Assembly: GCA_017405875.1 (NCBI GenBank)
Contig: JAFQZM010000007.1
Location: 1-40,375, forward strand
From: a bacterium
GTDB lineage: Bacteria > UBP6 > UBA1177
Reading direction: 5' to 3'
DNA length: 40,375 bases
This document shows, piece after piece, positions 2 to 38,819 of the stretch. Under the pieces are notes generated by a model. That model was not told the origin of the DNA. It saw nothing but the letters and a program-made list of their open reading frames with translations, and did not search any database. The position numbers and the translations under genes are program-made. Position 1 is the first letter of the stretch. The number at the start of each line of letters is the position of its first letter.

Positions 2-1159
2 TGGGGCGGCTCACTCTACGAGCCCGAAACCAACCTTTATTGGATGCGCAACCGTTATTACCACATCGATATGCACCGCTTCATCAACCAAGATCCCATC
101 GGCATCTGGGGTGATGCCAACAACCTCGGCAACGGCTTCGCTTATGTCGCAGGAATGGTTATCGAAGCTAGTGATCCGAGTGGGTTAGATATTTGGATTG
201 AAGATGGTGTAAATGGGGATGTTCCATGGCATCAGAAAATATCTGTAACAGATACTGAAGATCCTAGTGGTTATACATCTTGGAGTTTTGGAGTTATCTT
301 TGAAGATGATGGAAAATCAAAAAGAATGTCAAATAATATTTCTGCGTTCTTTGGTGCGGTTGGTGAGGTTTATAGAGATAATGATGGTAAAAATGGAAAA
401 ATTGTGGCTAAACTTAGAACCTCCTCTAAACAAGACGAAATGGCAAGAAATATATTAAATATGCTAACAGGATTAAATGGGACATACGCTATATTGTCTC
501 CAGCAGGTGTTACTTGTCGAGGCTTTTCCAAAAATATGTACTCTATGTTTAAAGATGGGGTTTATGATTTTTATGCTGCAAAGAGTTTATTCGATAAAAT
601 TACAACTAATATTTCAAATGAACAAAGTAGTGAAGAACCGTATCATGCAGGGTACGATAGGGAAATAATAGACAATGGTGATGGAACAAGCACCGAAAGA
701 TATTACGATGAAAATGGCAATCTTGATACGGAAGCAGTAAGAGATAATGTAACTGGAGAAATTATTTTATGCTCTGGTTCAGGCTGTGAATTTCTAACCG
801 ACGATTCATCGTCGTATCCCTATGATCCAAACTCTACTATGGACCCAATACAAAAGATTTTAATGAGCAACATTTTGGCGAAAATGTTAAAGCGTGGAGA
901 ACCTGAACAACCACCATTTTTTACCGATACAAGTACTGGTCCAAACGGAGCAATAGTGATTTATAAAAATCCCTACTATGTAAACAAAGACCCGTTAAAA
1001 ACTATTTTCTTTGATGGGAACGATGGTTCTGGAAAGCCTATGATCTACCGTAATCCGTTTGTTCCAACAAATGCTGAATATGGATACGATTCGACAACTT
1101 ATGAGAAATGGCAACAAAGTGGTTTCGTCCAGCCGGAGGTTGACCCATGGCTAAGATAA
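2..1159 (+). CDS. Rhs-family polymorphic toxin, C-terminal part (5' end outside window)
   Basis: The frame is open from base 2, so the gene starts upstream of the window. The first ~60 codons are the Rhs repeat-associated core end: LYWMRNRYYH, then RFINQDPIGIWG, then ASDPSGLD, the usual junction to a variable toxin domain. Composition changes from GC-rich core to AT-rich tip right after this, as is typical of exchangeable Rhs tips. The tip contains WHQKISV and, later, TCRGFSKNMY. This His-then-Cys order resembles permuted papain/NlpC-like domains found in other Rhs tips; a hydrolase function is inference. The last ~65 residues (NPYYVNKDPLK to QPEVDPWLR) recur twice downstream. The codons for PEV contain GGAGG and those for PW contain the ATG of the next gene, so toxin end and next gene are translationally coupled. 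An NAD- or nuclease-type toxin is not excluded. Confidence 0.85.
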   Translation, partial: WGGSLYEPETNLYWMRNRYYHIDMHRFINQDPIGIWGDANNLGNGFAYVAGMVIEASDPSGLDIWIEDGVNGDVPWHQKISVTDTEDPSGYTSWSFGVIFEDDGKSKRMSNNISAFFGAVGEVYRDNDGKNGKIVAKLRTSSKQDEMARNILNMLTGLNGTYAILSPAGVTCRGFSKNMYSMFKDGVYDFYAAKSLFDKITTNISNEQSSEEPYHAGYDREIIDNGDGTSTERYYDENGNLDTEAVRDNVTGEIILCSGSGCEFLTDDSSSYPYDPNSTMDPIQKILMSNILAKMLKRGEPEQPPFFTDTSTGPNGAIVIYKNPYYVNKDPLKTIFFDGNDGSGKPMIYRNPFVPTNAEYGYDSTTYEKWQQSGFVQPEVDPWLR

Positions 1160-1698
1160 TTAATTACGATAAGCGATGGCGCCATCTGGTTTTGATTTCC
1201 GAAATCTTTTATTTGTTCATATTTTTTGAATTGTGGACAGTATTTCATTTGTATTATAAGTGGTATATTTCGGCAACTACATTTTTGTTCATAGTGATGG
1301 GGCCTTTTTTATTTTTGCTAGTTTTTCACATATACTATATTTTTATGAGTTTTTATTTAGAACGGTTGAAATATCTAAGAAAATTTGCCGTATCGCTTCT
1401 TTTATTCAGACTATTGTTGTTATCTTTTGTCTTTTTTAAATGGCTGACTGACATGATTATTTTAGATGCCATCTATAGATCGGGGAAGCAACCGGACAAA
1501 AAACTTTTGCTTTTTAAGAACGTAATTTCAGGGAGTATTGAAATTATTCCGTATTTGATTTTTGAAATATGTTTTATAGCGAGCTTTTTTGTTAAAAGAC
1601 TCGAGAATAAGAGAAAAATTATGATTGTCATATTTTTGTTATCGTTGGTATGTTTCTATATTTTACAGAGTTACGGATTTATGACTTACTTACCGTGA
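1147..1698 (+). CDS. Multi-pass membrane protein, candidate Rhs immunity protein
   Basis: A 183-residue protein with about four or five hydrophobic segments (for example FYLFIFFELW, FLFIVMGPFLFLLVF, FVFFKWL, IMIVIFLLSLVCFYIL) separated by short basic loops. I do not recognise the family. It starts at an ATG inside the last codons of the Rhs gene, overlapping it by 13 bases, and its ribosome site GGAGG lies in the toxin codons. A small gene overlapping the end of an Rhs toxin is the classic position of a cognate immunity gene. A membrane location would fit protection against a toxin acting at the inner membrane or periplasm. The immunity role is inferred from position only. Confidence 0.7.
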   Translation: MAKIINYDKRWRHLVLISEIFYLFIFFELWTVFHLYYKWYISATTFLFIVMGPFLFLLVFHIYYIFMSFYLERLKYLRKFAVSLLLFRLLLLSFVFFKWLTDMIILDAIYRSGKQPDKKLLLFKNVISGSIEIIPYLIFEICFIASFFVKRLENKRKIMIVIFLLSLVCFYILQSYGFMTYLP

Positions 1699-1731
1699 AA
1701 TATCGATCCTTATTGGCAGTAGGAGAGAACG

Positions 1732-2631
1732 ATGAAACAACTAATACCCGTACTGATTATCTTTTTCACCCTGATTGTTTTTTCCGAAGGATTTGAAAAC
1801 CTTTCGGAGATATACGAATTCCTGACAGGCAACACCTTTAGCTCCTGCGCAGAAACTGAAGTCCAGATGGAAATGAAATTTTTTAAGGATAAGAGTGTTA
1901 CAATCGTCTATAAAACAGATTGGTGGAATGATGAAAAGAATAAACAGGAAGAATTTGTTAAGGAAGAGACCGGGAAATACGAAATTTTAAAAAACAACAT
2001 TGTAAAAATTTCAATACCGCGTGACAGCAGTTCTGCTGAATTTCTGTTTGGAAACAACGTGAACCTGTTAGGCTCTTTTTTCCCTGATGACGGCCTGATT
2101 TTTTTAAGGAAATCCAACGCAAACAAGGATTCCGTTTTTTCATCTATGGAAAGAGAAACAATGTTTTTTTATAAGAACGGCTGCCAGTTTCATATCAATA
2201 CTGAACGGAAAGAATTAAGAAAACAGTATTCGGAAAAACTGACATACGAGAAGAATAAGGAGTTGAAAGCACTTTTCCTGAAAATCATGGATGATGATTT
2301 CGAAGCAGTAAAAACTCAACTGAAACAGAACAAAAAGCTGGCAGTTTTAAAATCATATTGGGGAGATACCCCGCTTATGTTTTTTGTAAGGACTCACATC
2401 TTTTCGAAAGATTCGAATCTGAAACTGAATGCTGAAATTGTAAAAATATTGCTAAAATATGGAGCAGACCCGAATGCCAGAGAAACACTGACAGGTTTTA
2501 AAAATCCGGCATCTGCAAAAATGTTTACGGGCATAACGGAGCTGACGGTTTTATCATTGGTTGAAAATGCCGGGAATTTTAAAAACAAGAAAGAAATAAT
2601 TGATTTACTCAGGCAAAATGGGGCAAAATAG
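1732..2631 (+). CDS. Secreted ankyrin-repeat protein, possible immunity factor
   Basis: A 299-residue protein with an N-terminal signal peptide (MKQLIPVLIIFFTLIVFSEG) and a site like AGGAGAG upstream of the ATG. The middle is unrecognised and polar. From about residue 185 there are ankyrin-like helices: WGDTPLMFFVRTH, then AEIVKILLKYGADPNAR, then a final KEIIDLLRQNGAK. Ankyrin proteins often neighbour polymorphic toxins as immunity or accessory proteins, and the signal peptide puts this one in the periplasm or envelope. Its stop overlaps the GTG of the following Rhs-tail fragment (TAGTG), so the two are translationally coupled. Function beyond this is unknown. Confidence 0.75.
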   Translation: MKQLIPVLIIFFTLIVFSEGFENLSEIYEFLTGNTFSSCAETEVQMEMKFFKDKSVTIVYKTDWWNDEKNKQEEFVKEETGKYEILKNNIVKISIPRDSSSAEFLFGNNVNLLGSFFPDDGLIFLRKSNANKDSVFSSMERETMFFYKNGCQFHINTERKELRKQYSEKLTYEKNKELKALFLKIMDDDFEAVKTQLKQNKKLAVLKSYWGDTPLMFFVRTHIFSKDSNLKLNAEIVKILLKYGADPNARETLTGFKNPASAKMFTGITELTVLSLVENAGNFKNKKEIIDLLRQNGAK

Positions 2632-2819
2632 TGAATCCCTATTATGTGAACAAAGATCCGTTGAAAACCATATTATTTAATGGTGACAATGGCTCAGGCA
2701 AGCCAATGATTTACAGGAACCCTTTTGTGCCAGGAGCAGAATATGGTTACGATGCTACGACTTATGACAAATGGCAACAAAGCGGCTTTGTTCAGCCGAA
2801 TGTAGATCCATGGGAATAA
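2631..2819 (+). CDS. Orphan Rhs C-terminal tail, copy 2
   Basis: A 62-residue reading frame from a GTG that overlaps the stop of the ankyrin gene. It is almost wholly a copy of the last ~60 residues of the Rhs protein: NPYYVNKDPLKTILF, KPMIYRNPFVP, EYGYDATTYDKWQQSGF and QPNVDPWE. No toxin domain precedes it in frame, so it is either a remnant of a displaced tip or a short conserved segment kept for coupling. The ATG of the next membrane gene (2810) again lies in the codons for Pro-Trp, although the GGAGG seen in copies 1 and 3 has decayed to GAATG here. It may be a pseudogene rather than a functional protein. Confidence 0.55.
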   Translation: MNPYYVNKDPLKTILFNGDNGSGKPMIYRNPFVPGAEYGYDATTYDKWQQSGFVQPNVDPWE

Positions 2820-3136
2820 TAAATTTTCGCCGTAAAGATGTTTGGGCATATATTTTTTCTGAACTCGGTTGGCTTTTCTTTTGTTTTTTCCAATTCCTTT
2901 CAGACAAGGCAGGGGATTTAAAATCTGCAAACGGAAATATTATGATGGCACTAAAGTATTCAAATATTTCTTCTTTTGGTTTGGGATTTATGTTGCTGAT
3001 ATTACTCTTCTTTCTTGTCTTTAGTTTTTTCAAAGGAACAAGCGAAGAAAAAAAGAGTATCAGATATTTGCTCTGTTTCCGAATAGTGATGTATTTAATG
3101 TGCTTCCTTTTTCCGATTTATTACAACGGAGATTGA
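2810..3136 (+). CDS. Small membrane protein, candidate immunity protein
   Basis: A 108-residue protein starting MGIINFRRKDVWAYIF, with three hydrophobic segments (ELGWLFFCFFQFL, FGLGFMLLILLFFLVFSFF, FRIVMYLMCFLFPIYY). The ATG at 2810 is preferred over an upstream in-frame codon at 2771 because it sits at the same place relative to the Rhs tail as the start of the 1147 gene. It overlaps the tail fragment by 10 bases. It has no obvious sequence similarity to the 1147 product beyond being multi-pass. One base separates its stop from the next ATG. An immunity role is inferred from position. Confidence 0.6.
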   Translation: MGIINFRRKDVWAYIFSELGWLFFCFFQFLSDKAGDLKSANGNIMMALKYSNISSFGLGFMLLILLFFLVFSFFKGTSEEKKSIRYLLCFRIVMYLMCFLFPIYYNGD

Positions 3137-3137
3137 G

Positions 3138-3473
3138 ATGAGAAAAAAATTATTTTGGATTTTAACAATAGTTCTTGAATTCTTAATGATTTTAGCAAGT
3201 GTATTCAAGCATTTGTTCAACAATAATCATGTCTTAGACATTTATTCAATAGTTGTATTTATTCTGTTGGAGGCATACATAATGGCAGGATTTTTCTTGA
3301 AGGAGATGTTCCCGCATCGAAAAAAGATGCTTCTTGTAATGTTTGTAAATGCTGTGGTTATATCAGACATTTGGTTCAATTTTACTTTTTCTCATAACAC
3401 TTTGATTTTTGCAGGATATTTGTTGTTATCTTTTGTTTTGCTTTATTTCATTTTAGTCCTTTTGTTGAGGTGA
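3138..3473 (+). CDS. Small four-helix membrane protein
   Basis: A 111-residue protein with four hydrophobic stretches (FWILTIVLEFLMILASVF, YSIVVFILLEAYIMAGFFL, MLLVMFVNAVVISDIWF, FAGYLLLSFVLLYFILVLLL). The family is unrecognised. It starts one base after the stop of the preceding membrane gene and ends one base before the ATG of the third Rhs-tail frame, so it lies in the middle of a tightly packed cassette. Together with the 2810 gene it may be a two-part immunity unit or the remains of two separate cassettes. Confidence 0.6.
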   Translation: MRKKLFWILTIVLEFLMILASVFKHLFNNNHVLDIYSIVVFILLEAYIMAGFFLKEMFPHRKKMLLVMFVNAVVISDIWFNFTFSHNTLIFAGYLLLSFVLLYFILVLLLR

Positions 3474-3474
3474 T

Positions 3475-3753
3475 ATGAATTGCGAAAAGAAGAATGTCTT
3501 TGAAATGATGGATGAAATTGGACCTGTTATTAAATATGACGACAACGGGCGAAAGATCTTCTTTTTCAATCCTTATTACAGAGGTAAGGATCCTCTAAAA
3601 GAAATCTTTTGGGAAACTAAAAACGCCGACGGAACCAAGGGGTTTGTCAGAAATCCTTTTGCACCAAAAGGCGAATATGGTTACGATGCTACTACATATA
3701 AAAAGTGGCAGCAAAGTGGGTTTATTCAGCCGGAGGTTGACCCATCATGGTAA
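3475..3753 (+). CDS. Orphan Rhs C-terminal tail, copy 3
   Basis: A 92-residue frame with its own ribosome site (GAGGTGAT before the ATG). The first ~27 residues (MNCEKKNVFEMMDEIG onward) are unlike the other copies. The rest is the shared tail: FFNPYYRGKDPLKEIFW, FVRNPFAPKGEYGYD, TTYKKWQQSGFIQPEVDPSW. The DNA from the QPEV codons to DP is identical to that in the full Rhs gene, including GGAGG, so this copy is young or under constraint. One codon is added before the final Trp. It could be a displaced toxin tip that has lost its catalytic part, or a small protein in its own right. Confidence 0.55.
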   Translation: MNCEKKNVFEMMDEIGPVIKYDDNGRKIFFFNPYYRGKDPLKEIFWETKNADGTKGFVRNPFAPKGEYGYDATTYKKWQQSGFIQPEVDPSW

Positions 3754-3794
3754 GTATTTGCATAATAATATTTGGCTCTATCCCAAAAAAGTGA
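3747..3794 (+). pseudogene. Remnant of a third tail-coupled gene (15 codons)
   Basis: An ATG at 3747 sits inside the last codons of tail copy 3 behind an intact GGAGG, exactly where membrane genes start after copies 1 and 2. The frame reads a hydrophobic start (MVSICIIIFGSI) and then stops at 3792. It looks like a truncated immunity-type gene whose body has been lost. Confidence 0.4.
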
Positions 3795-33716: not shown

Positions 33717-35177
<1,461 letters not shown>

Positions 35178-35186
<9 letters not shown>

Positions 35187-35306
35187 GACCTACCTCACAC
35201 AACGGACATTGTTGTTGTTAGTCTTATTGTTGTTGTTCACGTTTCCGTTGTTGAAATTCACGTTCCATGCGTTATCTGTATTATCTGATTTAGTAGAGGA
35301 AGACCA
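35178..35306 (-). other. DGR template repeat (TR)
   Basis: Read on the minus strand in the VR frame, it would encode a stretch with 15 Asn codons (NNNNKTNNNN near the end) and then VRCVR-stop. It aligns without gaps to the VR at 36111-36239, 933 bases away. Across the 129 bases there are 21 differences, all at positions that are A in the minus-strand TR. Of the 97-base variable core, 20 of about 43 adenines are changed and none of the other bases. AAC/AAT codons let A-mutagenesis reach many residues but not stop codons. It lies between avd and the RT, as in known DGRs, and should be transcribed as the template RNA. Confidence 0.97.
35183..35209 (-). promoter_or_regulatory. Initiation-of-mutagenic-homing-like block of the TR, also the RT start region
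   Basis: These 27 bases are identical in TR (35183-35209) and VR (36116-36142) and lie 3' of the last mutated adenine, where the invariant IMH element sits in studied DGRs. On the minus strand the block contains GAGG followed by the GTG used to start the RT. The same DNA thus appears to serve priming homology and translation initiation. Confidence 0.7.
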
Positions 35307-35877: not shown

Positions 35878-35996
35878 GAGCGTCATCTTGAGCAACGCGA
35901 AAGATCTCTTGTCATGTTGAGGCTTGCCGAAACATCTCTCGTCATCTTGAACGGATGTGAAAGATCTCTGAGATTCTTCGCTTCGCTCAGAATGAC
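35878..35996. repeat. Dispersed repeat, copy B, between VR and avd
   Basis: Begins with a degenerate unit (CGTCATCTTGAGCAACGCG at 35881) and continues into the 86-base repeat shared with 35067-35152, including the identical 57 bases at 35940-35996. It lies upstream of avd and downstream of the target. It is followed by three hairpins. Confidence 0.8.
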
Positions 35997-36110: not shown

Positions 36111-36239
36111 TGCGGTCACGACCTACCTCACACAACGGACATAGAGGCTGTAAGACTTAGCGTTGTCGTACACGTTTCCGATGAGGAAATCCACGAGCCA
36201 TGCGCTATCTGTACCATCTGACTTAGTAGAGGAAGACCA
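36111..36239 (-). other. DGR variable repeat (VR)
   Basis: This is the 3' end of the target gene, encoding about the last 39 residues (from LWSSSTKSDGTDSAW through VRCVR) and 12 bases past the stop. Compared with the TR, 13 of the 15 Asn codons now specify Gly, Ser, Leu, Asp, Ile, Tyr or Ala, and one Thr is Ser. Two Asn codons still read as Asn. The 36116-36142 end is identical to the TR. Variation is thus confined to the surface-loop end of the lectin-like domain. Confidence 0.97.
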
Positions 36240-38819
36240 AAGATAAACTGCACCATCACCTAACTTGCTGTAACGCCCGTCACTGTAAGAACTTCCCCAA
36301 CTTGAACAACCTGTGCCGCTTGATGATTGCGTGCCCGTCTGTGTACAGGTCGAACAACTCCAACAGCTGCTTGACAAGCAACCGTTTGTTTCGCTTACCT
36401 GACAGTTGCTCGTTACTCTGTTTGCTATCAAAAGCGTTTTGAGCTCATCAATCGTCGGCAGATGCCAATCCGAATAGCCGCCTTCTGTCAAATTATTACA
36501 ATATGTGCCTGCATTACTCCATGTCATCGTGCTTGATGCTCTCGCTGACCAGATGAGACCGCTTGATGAATCCCTGCACGGAGTTGATGAAGTTGAGCTG
36601 CACTCGGGGAACGCTGGTTTTGTACAGGAACTCCCGTCCCAAGTGTAAGTGCTTGCGCAGATGTATCGGCAGACTCCGGCACTTGTGCTGTAAGTTGAAG
36701 TGTAACTTGAAGGACTCCAGCTTGAGCCGCTCCATGTCTGGGTAAATTTGCCGTTCGCGCCGTTGTCATTCCAAACTGTATTTGCAGGCTTTGAAGAGCA
36801 GTTTCCCTGCTGTGTCTCGGCGGCGCAGGTTTTGCCCGATGAATTCCAATTGTAGTGACTATTGCATTTAAAATGACATTCTGTCGTGCTTTCAACTGTG
36901 TTGTAAACACCTGTCGTTGACGGATACCACTCACTTCCGTCATAAGTTTGGGTTATGCTTGAAACCGTGTTCCACTGTGCGTTTGACGGAAGACCTGTGC
37001 AGGAAGCTGTCTGTGTCGGTGCTGAAATGCAAGAGCCGTCTTGCCAGATGTAGCCTGCTGTGCAGACAAATTTGCAAATTCCGGCGGTTTTGCTGAATTC
37101 CGAAGTGTAACTTGAAGGACTCCAGCTTGAGCCGTTCCATGTTTGAGTGAACTTGCCGTTTGCACCGTTATCATTCCAAACCGTGTTCTCCGGTTTCGAA
37201 GAGCAATTCCCCTGCTGGGTTTCAACATTGCAGGTTTTGCTCGATGAATTCCAATTGTAGTGTTCCTCGCAGACATATTTGCACTCTCCCGCTATCTCGC
37301 TGTAACTTGAAGAAATCGGGGAGCTCCACCCTGTTGAACTGCTGTAACTCTGTGAGTATGTGCCGTTTCGGCCGCCATCGTTCCAAACTGAGTTCAACGG
37401 TTTGGACGAACATTCCGCAGGTCTCGTGCACTGATTCTGGGAATTGTTCCATGATCCTCCGGCATCGTTGCACTCCTCCAGGGTTGTATCGGCTGACATG
37501 CCGCTTCCGCCGTTTACAAGTGTTTCGACAAACTCTTTAGCTGCCTCTTTCATTGGTTCAAAATTTTCCCCCAGCGAGGTTGTGCAGTCAAGAACTAGCA
37601 TGATAAGTGCACTGCTTTGCTCTTCCTCAACTTGAGGCGGCAACTCTGCCATATCAATTTCGATATCGCCGTACCAACCGCTACCTGAGCTTGTCTGCTT
37701 CCAAAGACGGCTGCTGTTCTGGAAAACCTCTTTCGGAACTGTGCTGCCGTCAGAATATTTCAAATCATTAAACTGGAAGTAAAGTTCGCCGTTCGGACCT
37801 TTTTTGGTAGATGTGATCGTTTCTTCACCTGCTTGAAAACCTTCGTAAGTTATGTTTTCGAGTGTTTTCACACCGCTTGTCTTGTGATATGTCGCCTGAA
37901 TGTAAAGATTAGAACTTTCAGCTGTTTCGGCATTATCAAATGTGTAGCGGATAACCTGACCGTCATCGTATCCTCCGGGAATATAAACACCCATATTTAT
38001 GGATGTCGAAACCTTGTAGAGACTTTCTGCAATCTCATTGAAACGAGCCTTGACCTCTTCCATGTCCGACCCTTCAAAAGCATTTCCTTCACTTGCCAGC
38101 AGTTTCAGCATATCACGGAATTCTTCCATCAGAACATCAGGTATATCACCGCTGTTCAGACCAATTGTGTAGGCATCCAGGGTGAGCCCGTGTATTCCTT
38201 CCTCTTCAACTATTTTATCGTGAAGATAATTGAGATATTCAGTAGTGGAAAATTCCGGTCTGAACTCATCGGCTGTTGACTGGTTATCGAGACCGTCGGT
38301 GAATGTTACCAACGCCACATTCGTCAGCTTGTCAGGAAGCGGTTTATAAGTGTCCAGCATCTTCAATGCTGTGTCATCGGCATAGTAAAGCGTCGTCAGA
38401 TTTAACGGCTGAAGCTTTGTGTCGATAAAAGAGATGAACTCTGCCTTACTCTCTGTGTCCAGAAGTTTTATTGGTTGTGAATACAACTTATTGTTAAACC
38501 CGATAATGCCCAAATAGATACCCGCCTTTCTTTTTTCGCCGGAATCCGGATTTGTCGGATCGGTGTCAACATCATCAGGATCTGTATCCGCATCGTCGTC
38601 CGGCTGTGAATCGCTGCTGTCAGGAGCACTGTCCGGATTGTCTGAATCGGGTTCATCAGAAGGCTCAGTGTCTGCCGTAGGATCAGTGTCAACTGTGTCT
38701 TCGTCAGTCACGGTGTCGCCGGTATCTGTGTTGTCACCGGTTTTAGAACTGTCGCCTCCGCAGCTGACAACAAAAACCAAAGCCGCAAAAAGCGCAAAAG
38801 AAATAAAAAACCTCTTCAT
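36123..38819 (-). CDS. DGR target: surface lipoprotein with vWA-like, Cys-rich repeat and DUF1566 domains
   Basis: An 898-residue lipoprotein (signal FFISFALFAALVFVVSC, AGGAGG site). Order of regions: an Asp/Thr/Pro-rich linker (~25-90), likely a flexible stalk, then a vWA-like region (~95-450) with LTNVALVTFTDGLDN and a second MIDAS-like LVLDCTTSLGENFEPM. Four Cys-rich repeats follow (~455-755; CSSKPENTVWNDNGANG type). The C-terminal DUF1566/C-type-lectin-like domain has GLIWSARASSTMTW, YSDWHLPTIDELKTLL, LGDGAVYLWSSST and ends in the VR. Lectin-fold domains ending in a VR are the usual DGR display scaffold. It begins 18 bases after the outer-membrane gene upstream and is probably co-transcribed. 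The ligand is unknown. Confidence 0.93.
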   Translation of the reverse strand: MKRFFISFALFAALVFVVSCGGDSSKTGDNTDTGDTVTDEDTVDTDPTADTEPSDEPDSDNPDSAPDSSDSQPDDDADTDPDDVDTDPTNPDSGEKRKAGIYLGIIGFNNKLYSQPIKLLDTESKAEFISFIDTKLQPLNLTTLYYADDTALKMLDTYKPLPDKLTNVALVTFTDGLDNQSTADEFRPEFSTTEYLNYLHDKIVEEEGIHGLTLDAYTIGLNSGDIPDVLMEEFRDMLKLLASEGNAFEGSDMEEVKARFNEIAESLYKVSTSINMGVYIPGGYDDGQVIRYTFDNAETAESSNLYIQATYHKTSGVKTLENITYEGFQAGEETITSTKKGPNGELYFQFNDLKYSDGSTVPKEVFQNSSRLWKQTSSGSGWYGDIEIDMAELPPQVEEEQSSALIMLVLDCTTSLGENFEPMKEAAKEFVETLVNGGSGMSADTTLEECNDAGGSWNNSQNQCTRPAECSSKPLNSVWNDGGRNGTYSQSYSSSTGWSSPISSSYSEIAGECKYVCEEHYNWNSSSKTCNVETQQGNCSSKPENTVWNDNGANGKFTQTWNGSSWSPSSYTSEFSKTAGICKFVCTAGYIWQDGSCISAPTQTASCTGLPSNAQWNTVSSITQTYDGSEWYPSTTGVYNTVESTTECHFKCNSHYNWNSSGKTCAAETQQGNCSSKPANTVWNDNGANGKFTQTWSGSSWSPSSYTSTYSTSAGVCRYICASTYTWDGSSCTKPAFPECSSTSSTPCRDSSSGLIWSARASSTMTWSNAGTYCNNLTEGGYSDWHLPTIDELKTLLIANRVTSNCQVSETNGCLSSSCWSCSTCTQTGTQSSSGTGCSSWGSSYSDGRYSKLGDGAVYLWSSSTKSDGTDSAWLVDFLIGNVYDNAKSYSLYVRCVR
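36600..37440 (-). repeat. Tandem Cys-rich repeats within the DGR target gene
   Basis: Four units of roughly 60-75 codons. Each contains a Cys-Ser-Ser-Lys-Pro-like start, a Trp-Asn-Asp/Thr centre, a Gly-Ser-Ser-Trp-Ser-Pro or Ser-Glu-Trp-Tyr-Pro turn and a Cys-x-x-x-Cys/x-C-x-Y-x-W end. Two units (WNDNGANGKFTQTW) are nearly identical in protein and DNA, so recent duplication or conversion is likely. Boundaries are approximate. Confidence 0.8.

Follow-up and report, generated by a model that had tools for sequence, protein, structure and literature searches.

Several described systems resemble the locus considered here, which lies at the start of contig JAFQZM010000007.1 (GenBank assembly GCA_017405875.1). 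The stretch analysed, hereafter the window, comprises the first 40,375 bases of that contig and opens with the 3′ end of an Rhs gene, behind which immunity-like genes are interspersed with further copies of the last ~60 codons of the Rhs frame (the tail). In Rhs tip displacement, the variable tip is replaced by homologous recombination in which homology is confined to the core (Jackson et al., 2009; PMC2935791), and dissociated units of core fragment plus tip, that is truncated Rhs units, lie downstream, as they do in Salmonella orphan Rhs (PMC3967940). In the type VI secretion system (T6SS) of Vibrio cholerae, immunity arrays form by sequential effector displacement: old immunity genes are retained downstream of the new pair, effector remnants persist in the arrays, and the downstream join has been proposed to be a homology-facilitated illegitimate recombination (Kirchberger et al., 2017; PMC5361080). 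Polyimmunity loci are tandem, same-strand, tightly spaced runs of mostly unrelated immunity-type genes, ankyrin proteins included, that have been described as never interrupted by toxin genes or cassettes, and the toxins themselves generally sit at the extreme C-terminus (Zhang et al., 2012; PMC3482391). Finally, the esaG and tipC immunity clusters recombine through short blocks of homology within the immunity genes (Garrett et al., 2022; PMC9484751).

The window and its relatives share features with all of these. They have the Rhs core, the variable C-terminus and the truncated downstream units of the displaced Rhs loci; in the latter, however, homology is upstream only and the variable tip ends the gene, whereas here a constant tail follows the toxin and offers a second, downstream homology, and toxin-less tail-only units are added. 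As in V. cholerae, the same immunity families stand behind full Rhs genes and behind tail-only copies, the pattern expected of a displacement array, but in place of an illegitimate second join many joins fall within a shared coding repeat that carries translation signals. VipB (PF05943) was moreover not found in eight genomes of the genus, and T6SS delivery of these Rhs proteins was rejected on that ground. Unlike the uninterrupted polyimmunity loci, the present arrays are attached to Rhs and have the tail of a toxin gene between their members, and whereas the short conserved recombination blocks of esaG and tipC lie inside paralogous immunity genes, here the blocks are a toxin 3′ end placed between unrelated ones. 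An integron-like cassette array would have an integrase and attC-type sites; the repeat of the present arrays is protein-coding. A literature search returned no paper on a constant post-toxin tail reused between immunity genes; one may exist elsewhere. We read the window, with a probability of roughly 0.78, as the 3′ part of a gene for a surface-type Rhs polymorphic toxin together with its immunity-gene array, shaped by Rhs displacement in which a second, downstream homology segment carries the translation signals of the next gene.

A first line of evidence is that crossovers have occurred inside tails and that immunity units have been exchanged there, as is seen directly in abrupt changes in mismatch along aligned pairs. 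Where the downstream gene is near-identical and the upstream sequence unrelated, mismatch falls from 0.52–0.61 to 0.00–0.04 at tail positions 85, 73, 10 and 151: a tail-only copy (L032|12103) and an Rhs-borne one (L039|6671) change from 0.61 to 0.04 at nt 85 of 180, another pair of a tail-only and an Rhs copy from 0.60 to 0.02 at nt 10, and a further pair from 0.52 to 0.00 at nt 151. Units that are alike upstream (94–99.5%) diverge at tail positions 33, 34 and 43, and in one case at −39, with mismatch rising from 0.01 to 0.57 at nt 34. Pairs of Rhs genes with the same toxin mostly run through the tail without a comparable jump. Among tail-only copies, site incompatibility grows with distance, from 0.45 within 30 nt to 0.77 beyond 90 nt (permutation p = 0.001). 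Breakpoints fall in the tail in 42 of 78 pairs, against ~18 expected under a uniform null, a count that we do not use as a main argument because of relatedness among the pairs and because some of the breakpoints coincide with the ends of alignments.

The same is seen at the level of whole units. The two-gene unit at 2810–3473 of the window recurs in genomes G005 and G007, where it is mostly 85–100% identical inside, ~0.7 in the flanking tails and at a background of 0.3–0.5 beyond, and in each genome a different immunity-like gene comes next; its first gene is preceded by a different tail in each of the loci L032 and L051. With crossovers inside the tails, each immunity unit lies between two tail segments and can be exchanged as such. 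The sequence-only reading of the window had proposed that toxin/immunity cassettes recombine through the tail. Looking for breakpoints across genomes located them inside tails, which upholds the exchange itself; the cargo differs from what was foreseen, since tail-only copies mainly pass on immunity units without a toxin, whereas the toxins are borne on Rhs frames, truncated or complete.

The second line of evidence concerns the tail end, where almost every intact tail precedes a gene with a Shine–Dalgarno (SD) sequence. Tails of the window type (class A, ...PEVDPW) have the SD in the Pro-Glu-Val codons and an ATG that overlaps the tail frame. Most tails (class B, ...TNVDPYWY and similar) have Asn in place of Glu, an SD that abuts or overlaps the tail stop, and an ATG mostly 11–19 nt downstream of the first base of the stop codon. 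GGAG or GAGG occurs inside the tail-end codons of 26 of 27 class A tails and of 0 of 61 class B tails, the sole class A tail without it being the second copy of the window. In counts that include related copies, the class A Glu codon is GAG in 26/26, as against 462 GAG and 1,768 GAA elsewhere in the same Rhs frames (462/2230, 21%), and Pro before Trp is CCA in 25/25, as CC-ATG-G requires, whereas class B uses all four Pro codons. The class A tail-end codons are thus under strong constraint for SD and start. That the tail serves as toxin end, ribosome site and start of the next gene was an earlier suggestion from the window alone; its first two parts fit these data, with the SD supplied by the tail end and the codons strongly constrained, while the start belongs to the tail in class A only. 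The overlap with the next gene does not hold as a general rule, because most tailed Rhs genes are of class B and have a non-overlapping next gene, an arrangement that the suggestion had itself named as contrary evidence.

The tail is also part of the Rhs protein. The comparison centres on the genus of the window organism, uncultured ruminant-gut bacteria represented by ruminant metagenome-assembled genomes (MAGs) and named 'UBP6' at NCBI. The fetched loci contain 36 distinct ends of the Rhs core, of which 35 continue through a variable region of 190–290 amino acids into the tail, and in the lone exception the frame is broken by a stop codon with the tail still behind it in frame; the search for this C-terminus among Rhs proteins that had been proposed from the window thus finds it on nearly all Rhs of the genus. 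The variable regions of the 36 fall into 15 sequence clusters, and behind them 35 of the 36 have a constant C-terminal region of ~115 amino acids, with subtypes, in which a helix-like part precedes the tail (alignment A2, 33 C-termini). Full-length relatives of 2,700–2,800 amino acids start with a signal-peptide-like sequence followed by Cys-rich EGF-like and leucine-rich repeats, match Pfam RHS_repeat (E-values 1e-10 to 1e-14) and look like Sec-exported, surface-type Rhs proteins. No Pfam model covers the tail, and searches with the tail, the window toxin and the small membrane genes gave nothing above the Pfam cut-off but ankyrin. Within the tail the ratio of nonsynonymous to synonymous polymorphism (pN/pS) is about 0.2–0.35 while synonymous sites are saturated, which argues that it is kept as protein. 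On this pattern the tail is conserved at the protein level and, for that reason, is not merely a DNA coupling module.

Tail copies number 1–17 in each of 14 of the 15 genomes of the genus and are fewer and more divergent in other genera of the family and order; tail searches in the other sampled phyla gave no copies. When 84,980 species genomes were scanned, the named matches were ruminant MAGs labelled UBP6, 'uncultured bacterium' or 'Spirochaetales', together with two short contigs in other bins. These two tail-bearing contigs (L091 and L104; 5.5 and 3.1 kb) are binned in Methanobrevibacter and Lachnospiraceae MAGs and are probably binning errors or contamination. Viral contigs gave no relative, hence no link to phage. 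That the tail might be a general sorting signal on other proteins was considered and rejected, as the window genome has only three copies and nearly all full-length copies in relatives end an Rhs or precede an immunity-like gene.

Some 50 tail copies stand apart from any Rhs core and separate immunity-like genes. The arrays are tandem, on one strand and closely spaced, with tail-only copies and truncated Rhs frames interspersed. Many full-length tail-only open reading frames (ORFs) have an SD, and their ATG or GTG shares bases with the stop codon of the gene before them (TAATG, GTGA, TAGTG); array genes generally abut or overlap, which makes translational coupling along the array plausible. 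Seven downstream gene families (I1–I6 and I10) are found after full Rhs toxin-plus-tail as well as after tail-only copies, and the pairing of toxin clusters with immunity families is consistent. The downstream genes code for small multi-pass membrane, ankyrin, WG-repeat and lipoprotein-like proteins; the earlier description of the tail as a module for membrane genes was therefore apt for many downstream genes and too narrow for the rest.

Some arrangements in the fetched loci are less regular. Tails fused to the first ~25–70 Rhs residues with an immunity-like gene behind (L043:2637-2916, L059:3217-3544 and L034:4403-4600) look as though the toxin body had been lost while the immunity gene stayed behind the Rhs start. 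At L036:18628-18678 and in L038, L040, L043, L045, L047 and L049, some tails have a doubled terminus (...VDPYSNLQQGGFIQTNVDPYW) through tandem duplication of the final ~17 codons. Tail-plus-immunity units also stand alone, like small immunity islands, with no Rhs-core homology in the fetched stretch (the L042:3100-5400 region of G009:C41, and L034:4400-11450 in G007:C2).

Taken together, these features suggest how displacement might proceed. A donor segment would join the core on its upstream side and a tail on its downstream side. Since reading frame, stop, SD and start all survive a crossover between two tails, a new toxin–immunity pair could take the place of the old toxin, and the old immunity gene, shifted downstream behind an intact tail end, would still be translated. 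Arrays would thereby build up protection against the toxins of relatives, and a role of the tail within the Rhs protein, in folding, export or toxin presentation, would keep it conserved. We infer the direction and order of the displacement events from the arrangement of the present arrays.

The window illustrates most of these elements, all on the forward strand, in the order Rhs C-terminus, tail 1, 183-aa membrane protein, stub, ankyrin protein, tail 2, 108-aa and 111-aa membrane proteins, tail 3 and the remnant of a fourth immunity-like gene. Its genome (2.5 Mb, 99% complete) contains tail copies 1–3 only, with E-values of 5e-41, 3e-33 and 1e-21 that exclude chance, and the matched segments are 968–1150, 2634–2813 (87% protein identity to copy 1) and 3568–3744 (64%). 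The three copies of the sequence-only reading are thus borne out, at 964/968–1159, 2631–2819 and 3568–3753, with the third proper beginning at 3568 and not at 3559. So is its observation that an ATG near each copy end opens a new frame, at 1147 (183 aa), 2810 (108 aa) and 3747 (15 codons, a remnant), and that GGAGG occurs in copies 1 (1135–1139) and 3 (3732–3736) but not in copy 2 (CCGAATGT).

The Rhs gene is cut by the contig edge, leaving just the last ~63 amino acids of its core. In the frame at 2–1159, residues 1–63 (2–190; DPIGIWGD...DPSGLD) match the end of the core in 34 other Rhs frames from the genus and relatives, and 259 residues counted as the variable region lead to the ~60-residue tail at 968–1159. 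Alignment A2 divides this part, at an approximate border, into the variable toxin region of cluster T8 (191–810) and the constant C-terminal region (811–1159), which includes tail copy 1. T8 has a single relative in the genus set, in locus L041 of genome G009. The embedded SD (GGAGG, 1135–1139) and overlapping ATG (1147–1149) of copy 1 lie in its Pro-Glu-Val-Asp-Pro-Trp codons (1135–1149) and belong to the 183-aa multi-pass membrane protein of family I2 (1147–1698). A 79% identical homologue stands behind the T8 toxin in L041, so that this is probably the cognate immunity gene of the window Rhs, a role that it is given by position and pairing; the remaining immunity-like genes of the window are probably orphans. 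A fourth tail remnant follows at 1692–1722, 30 nt that encode the last ~8 codons (...NIDPYWQ, stop). The 183-aa gene takes its stop from this stub, and the stub's own stop runs into GGAG, the SD of the next gene; the stub core (ATCGATCCTTATTGGCAGTAGGAGAGAACGATG) and the 10 bases behind are identical to the Rhs tail end of another genome (L046). The L041 homologue has the same stub junction and then another immunity gene.

The next gene encodes an exported ankyrin-repeat protein (1732–2631; Pfam Ank, E-value 8e-5), a probable orphan immunity gene that is 83% identical to a gene in a G007 array (L032:15550-16446), where it likewise precedes a tail copy. Tail copy 2 is a tail-only ORF (2631–2819) whose GTG shares a base with the TAG that ends the ankyrin gene (TAGTG). 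The 108-aa membrane protein (2810–3136; 92–93% identical in L032 and L051), the start of which overlaps copy 2, and the 111-aa membrane protein (3138–3473; 95% in L051, 88% in L032) make up the two-gene unit, a probable orphan immunity unit. Tail copy 3, with ~30 residues of the type-II pre-tail region, spans 3475–3753 (tail proper 3568–3753) and has an SD (GAGG) and an ATG right behind the preceding stop. Its embedded SD (3732–3736) and ATG (3747–3749; together 3732–3749) open a 15-codon remnant of an immunity-like gene of family I4 (3747–3794), which begins MVSICIIIF like the intact 167-aa genes of L035 and L038 that stand behind the same tail end. The DNA behind copy 3 has no second occurrence in the genome.

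Several points weigh against the displacement reading with a downstream arm. Toxin and immunity functions are assigned from position and pairing, and coupling likewise from sequence; all genomes are probably MAGs; and neither the codon counts nor the breakpoint pairs, which share ancestry, are independent trials. The incompatibility test (of the pairwise homoplasy index type) that is significant for tail-only copies is not so for Rhs-borne tails alone (p = 0.39), and some breakpoints map outside the tail, as far as ~110 nt upstream of it, within the constant region or the linker. Because most tails are saturated at synonymous sites relative to one another, efficient recombination would be limited to similar tails. 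An AlphaFold2 model of the constant region from 33 sequences was too poor for use (predicted local distance difference test score 56, predicted TM-score 0.23) and gives no guide to its protein role.

The alternative that survives best is that tail-only copies are passive leftovers of C-terminal displacement, kept for the adjacent ribosome site, with neither repeat nor peptide selected as an exchange or coupling device. Their 5′ ends are truncated at many points (profile hidden Markov model positions 1 to 47), only the last ~10 tail codons are invariably kept, the stub at 1692–1722 works with 30 nt, and some copies come from illegitimate joins, such as the Rhs N-terminus joined straight to a tail in L043, L059 and L034. 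Set against this, crossovers within full-length tails that have homology on either side are common, and start/stop overlaps recur at tail-only starts; we judge such passive origin to be a serious contender somewhat short of an even chance. Alternatively, the tail may be a protein-coding adaptor that evolved for cassette exchange, its DNA selected for stop codons and an SD/start restart at one end and for the SD and start of the next gene at the other, so that unrelated immunity genes could be swapped and yet be translated from the toxin operon; this we regard as a tentative proposal, less likely than not. The sequences do not tell a tail selected for exchange from one that arose as a by-product of a conserved toxin end.

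Two further explanations bear less weight. Tail-only ORFs could be functional small proteins, competing with or capping the Rhs C-terminus for example, with the arrays as operons of tail peptide and immunity protein. Full-length tail-only frames are indeed mostly intact with pN/pS of 0.13–0.31, and many have an SD and start codon, but the low ratios could be inherited from Rhs-borne tails through recent exchange, and many copies have lost the first 20–45 residues or overlap the upstream gene out of frame, which makes this unlikely. Mis-assembly of repeats in MAGs as the source of tail-only copies and mosaics, which the probable metagenomic origin of all genomes and the frequent ending of Rhs contigs in the core, in the window as elsewhere, might suggest, is highly improbable given that the window copies, ~69–79% alike in DNA over the best-matching 98 nt, are too different to collapse and that independent MAGs, derived from different hosts and studies, show the same units with the same junctions.

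Elsewhere in the window there is a diversity-generating retroelement on the reverse strand, with a reverse transcriptase (33717–35186; RVT_1, E-value 3e-18), a 129-nt template repeat (35178–35306) and a variable repeat (36111–36239) at the 3′ end of a gene for an Lcl_C-domain protein (36123–38819); all 21 of 21 mismatches are at template adenines. An 86-nt direct repeat (35067–35152 and 35911–35996, 92% identical) lies in the same region, outside the template/variable pair.

How a new toxin is gained without losing expressed immunity is an open point, for which published models offer a homology arm upstream only and illegitimate recombination or circular intermediates for the other side. With a visible downstream arm that carries translation signals, and with dozens of mosaic junctions available in public genomes, these bacteria open the question to direct tests. 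The rule that a polymorphic toxin occupies the extreme C-terminus is broken here, and software that equates the toxin with the last domain would annotate these proteins wrongly. By the same token, a repeated toxin tail between genes may provide a simple signature for finding immunity genes in uncultured bacteria.

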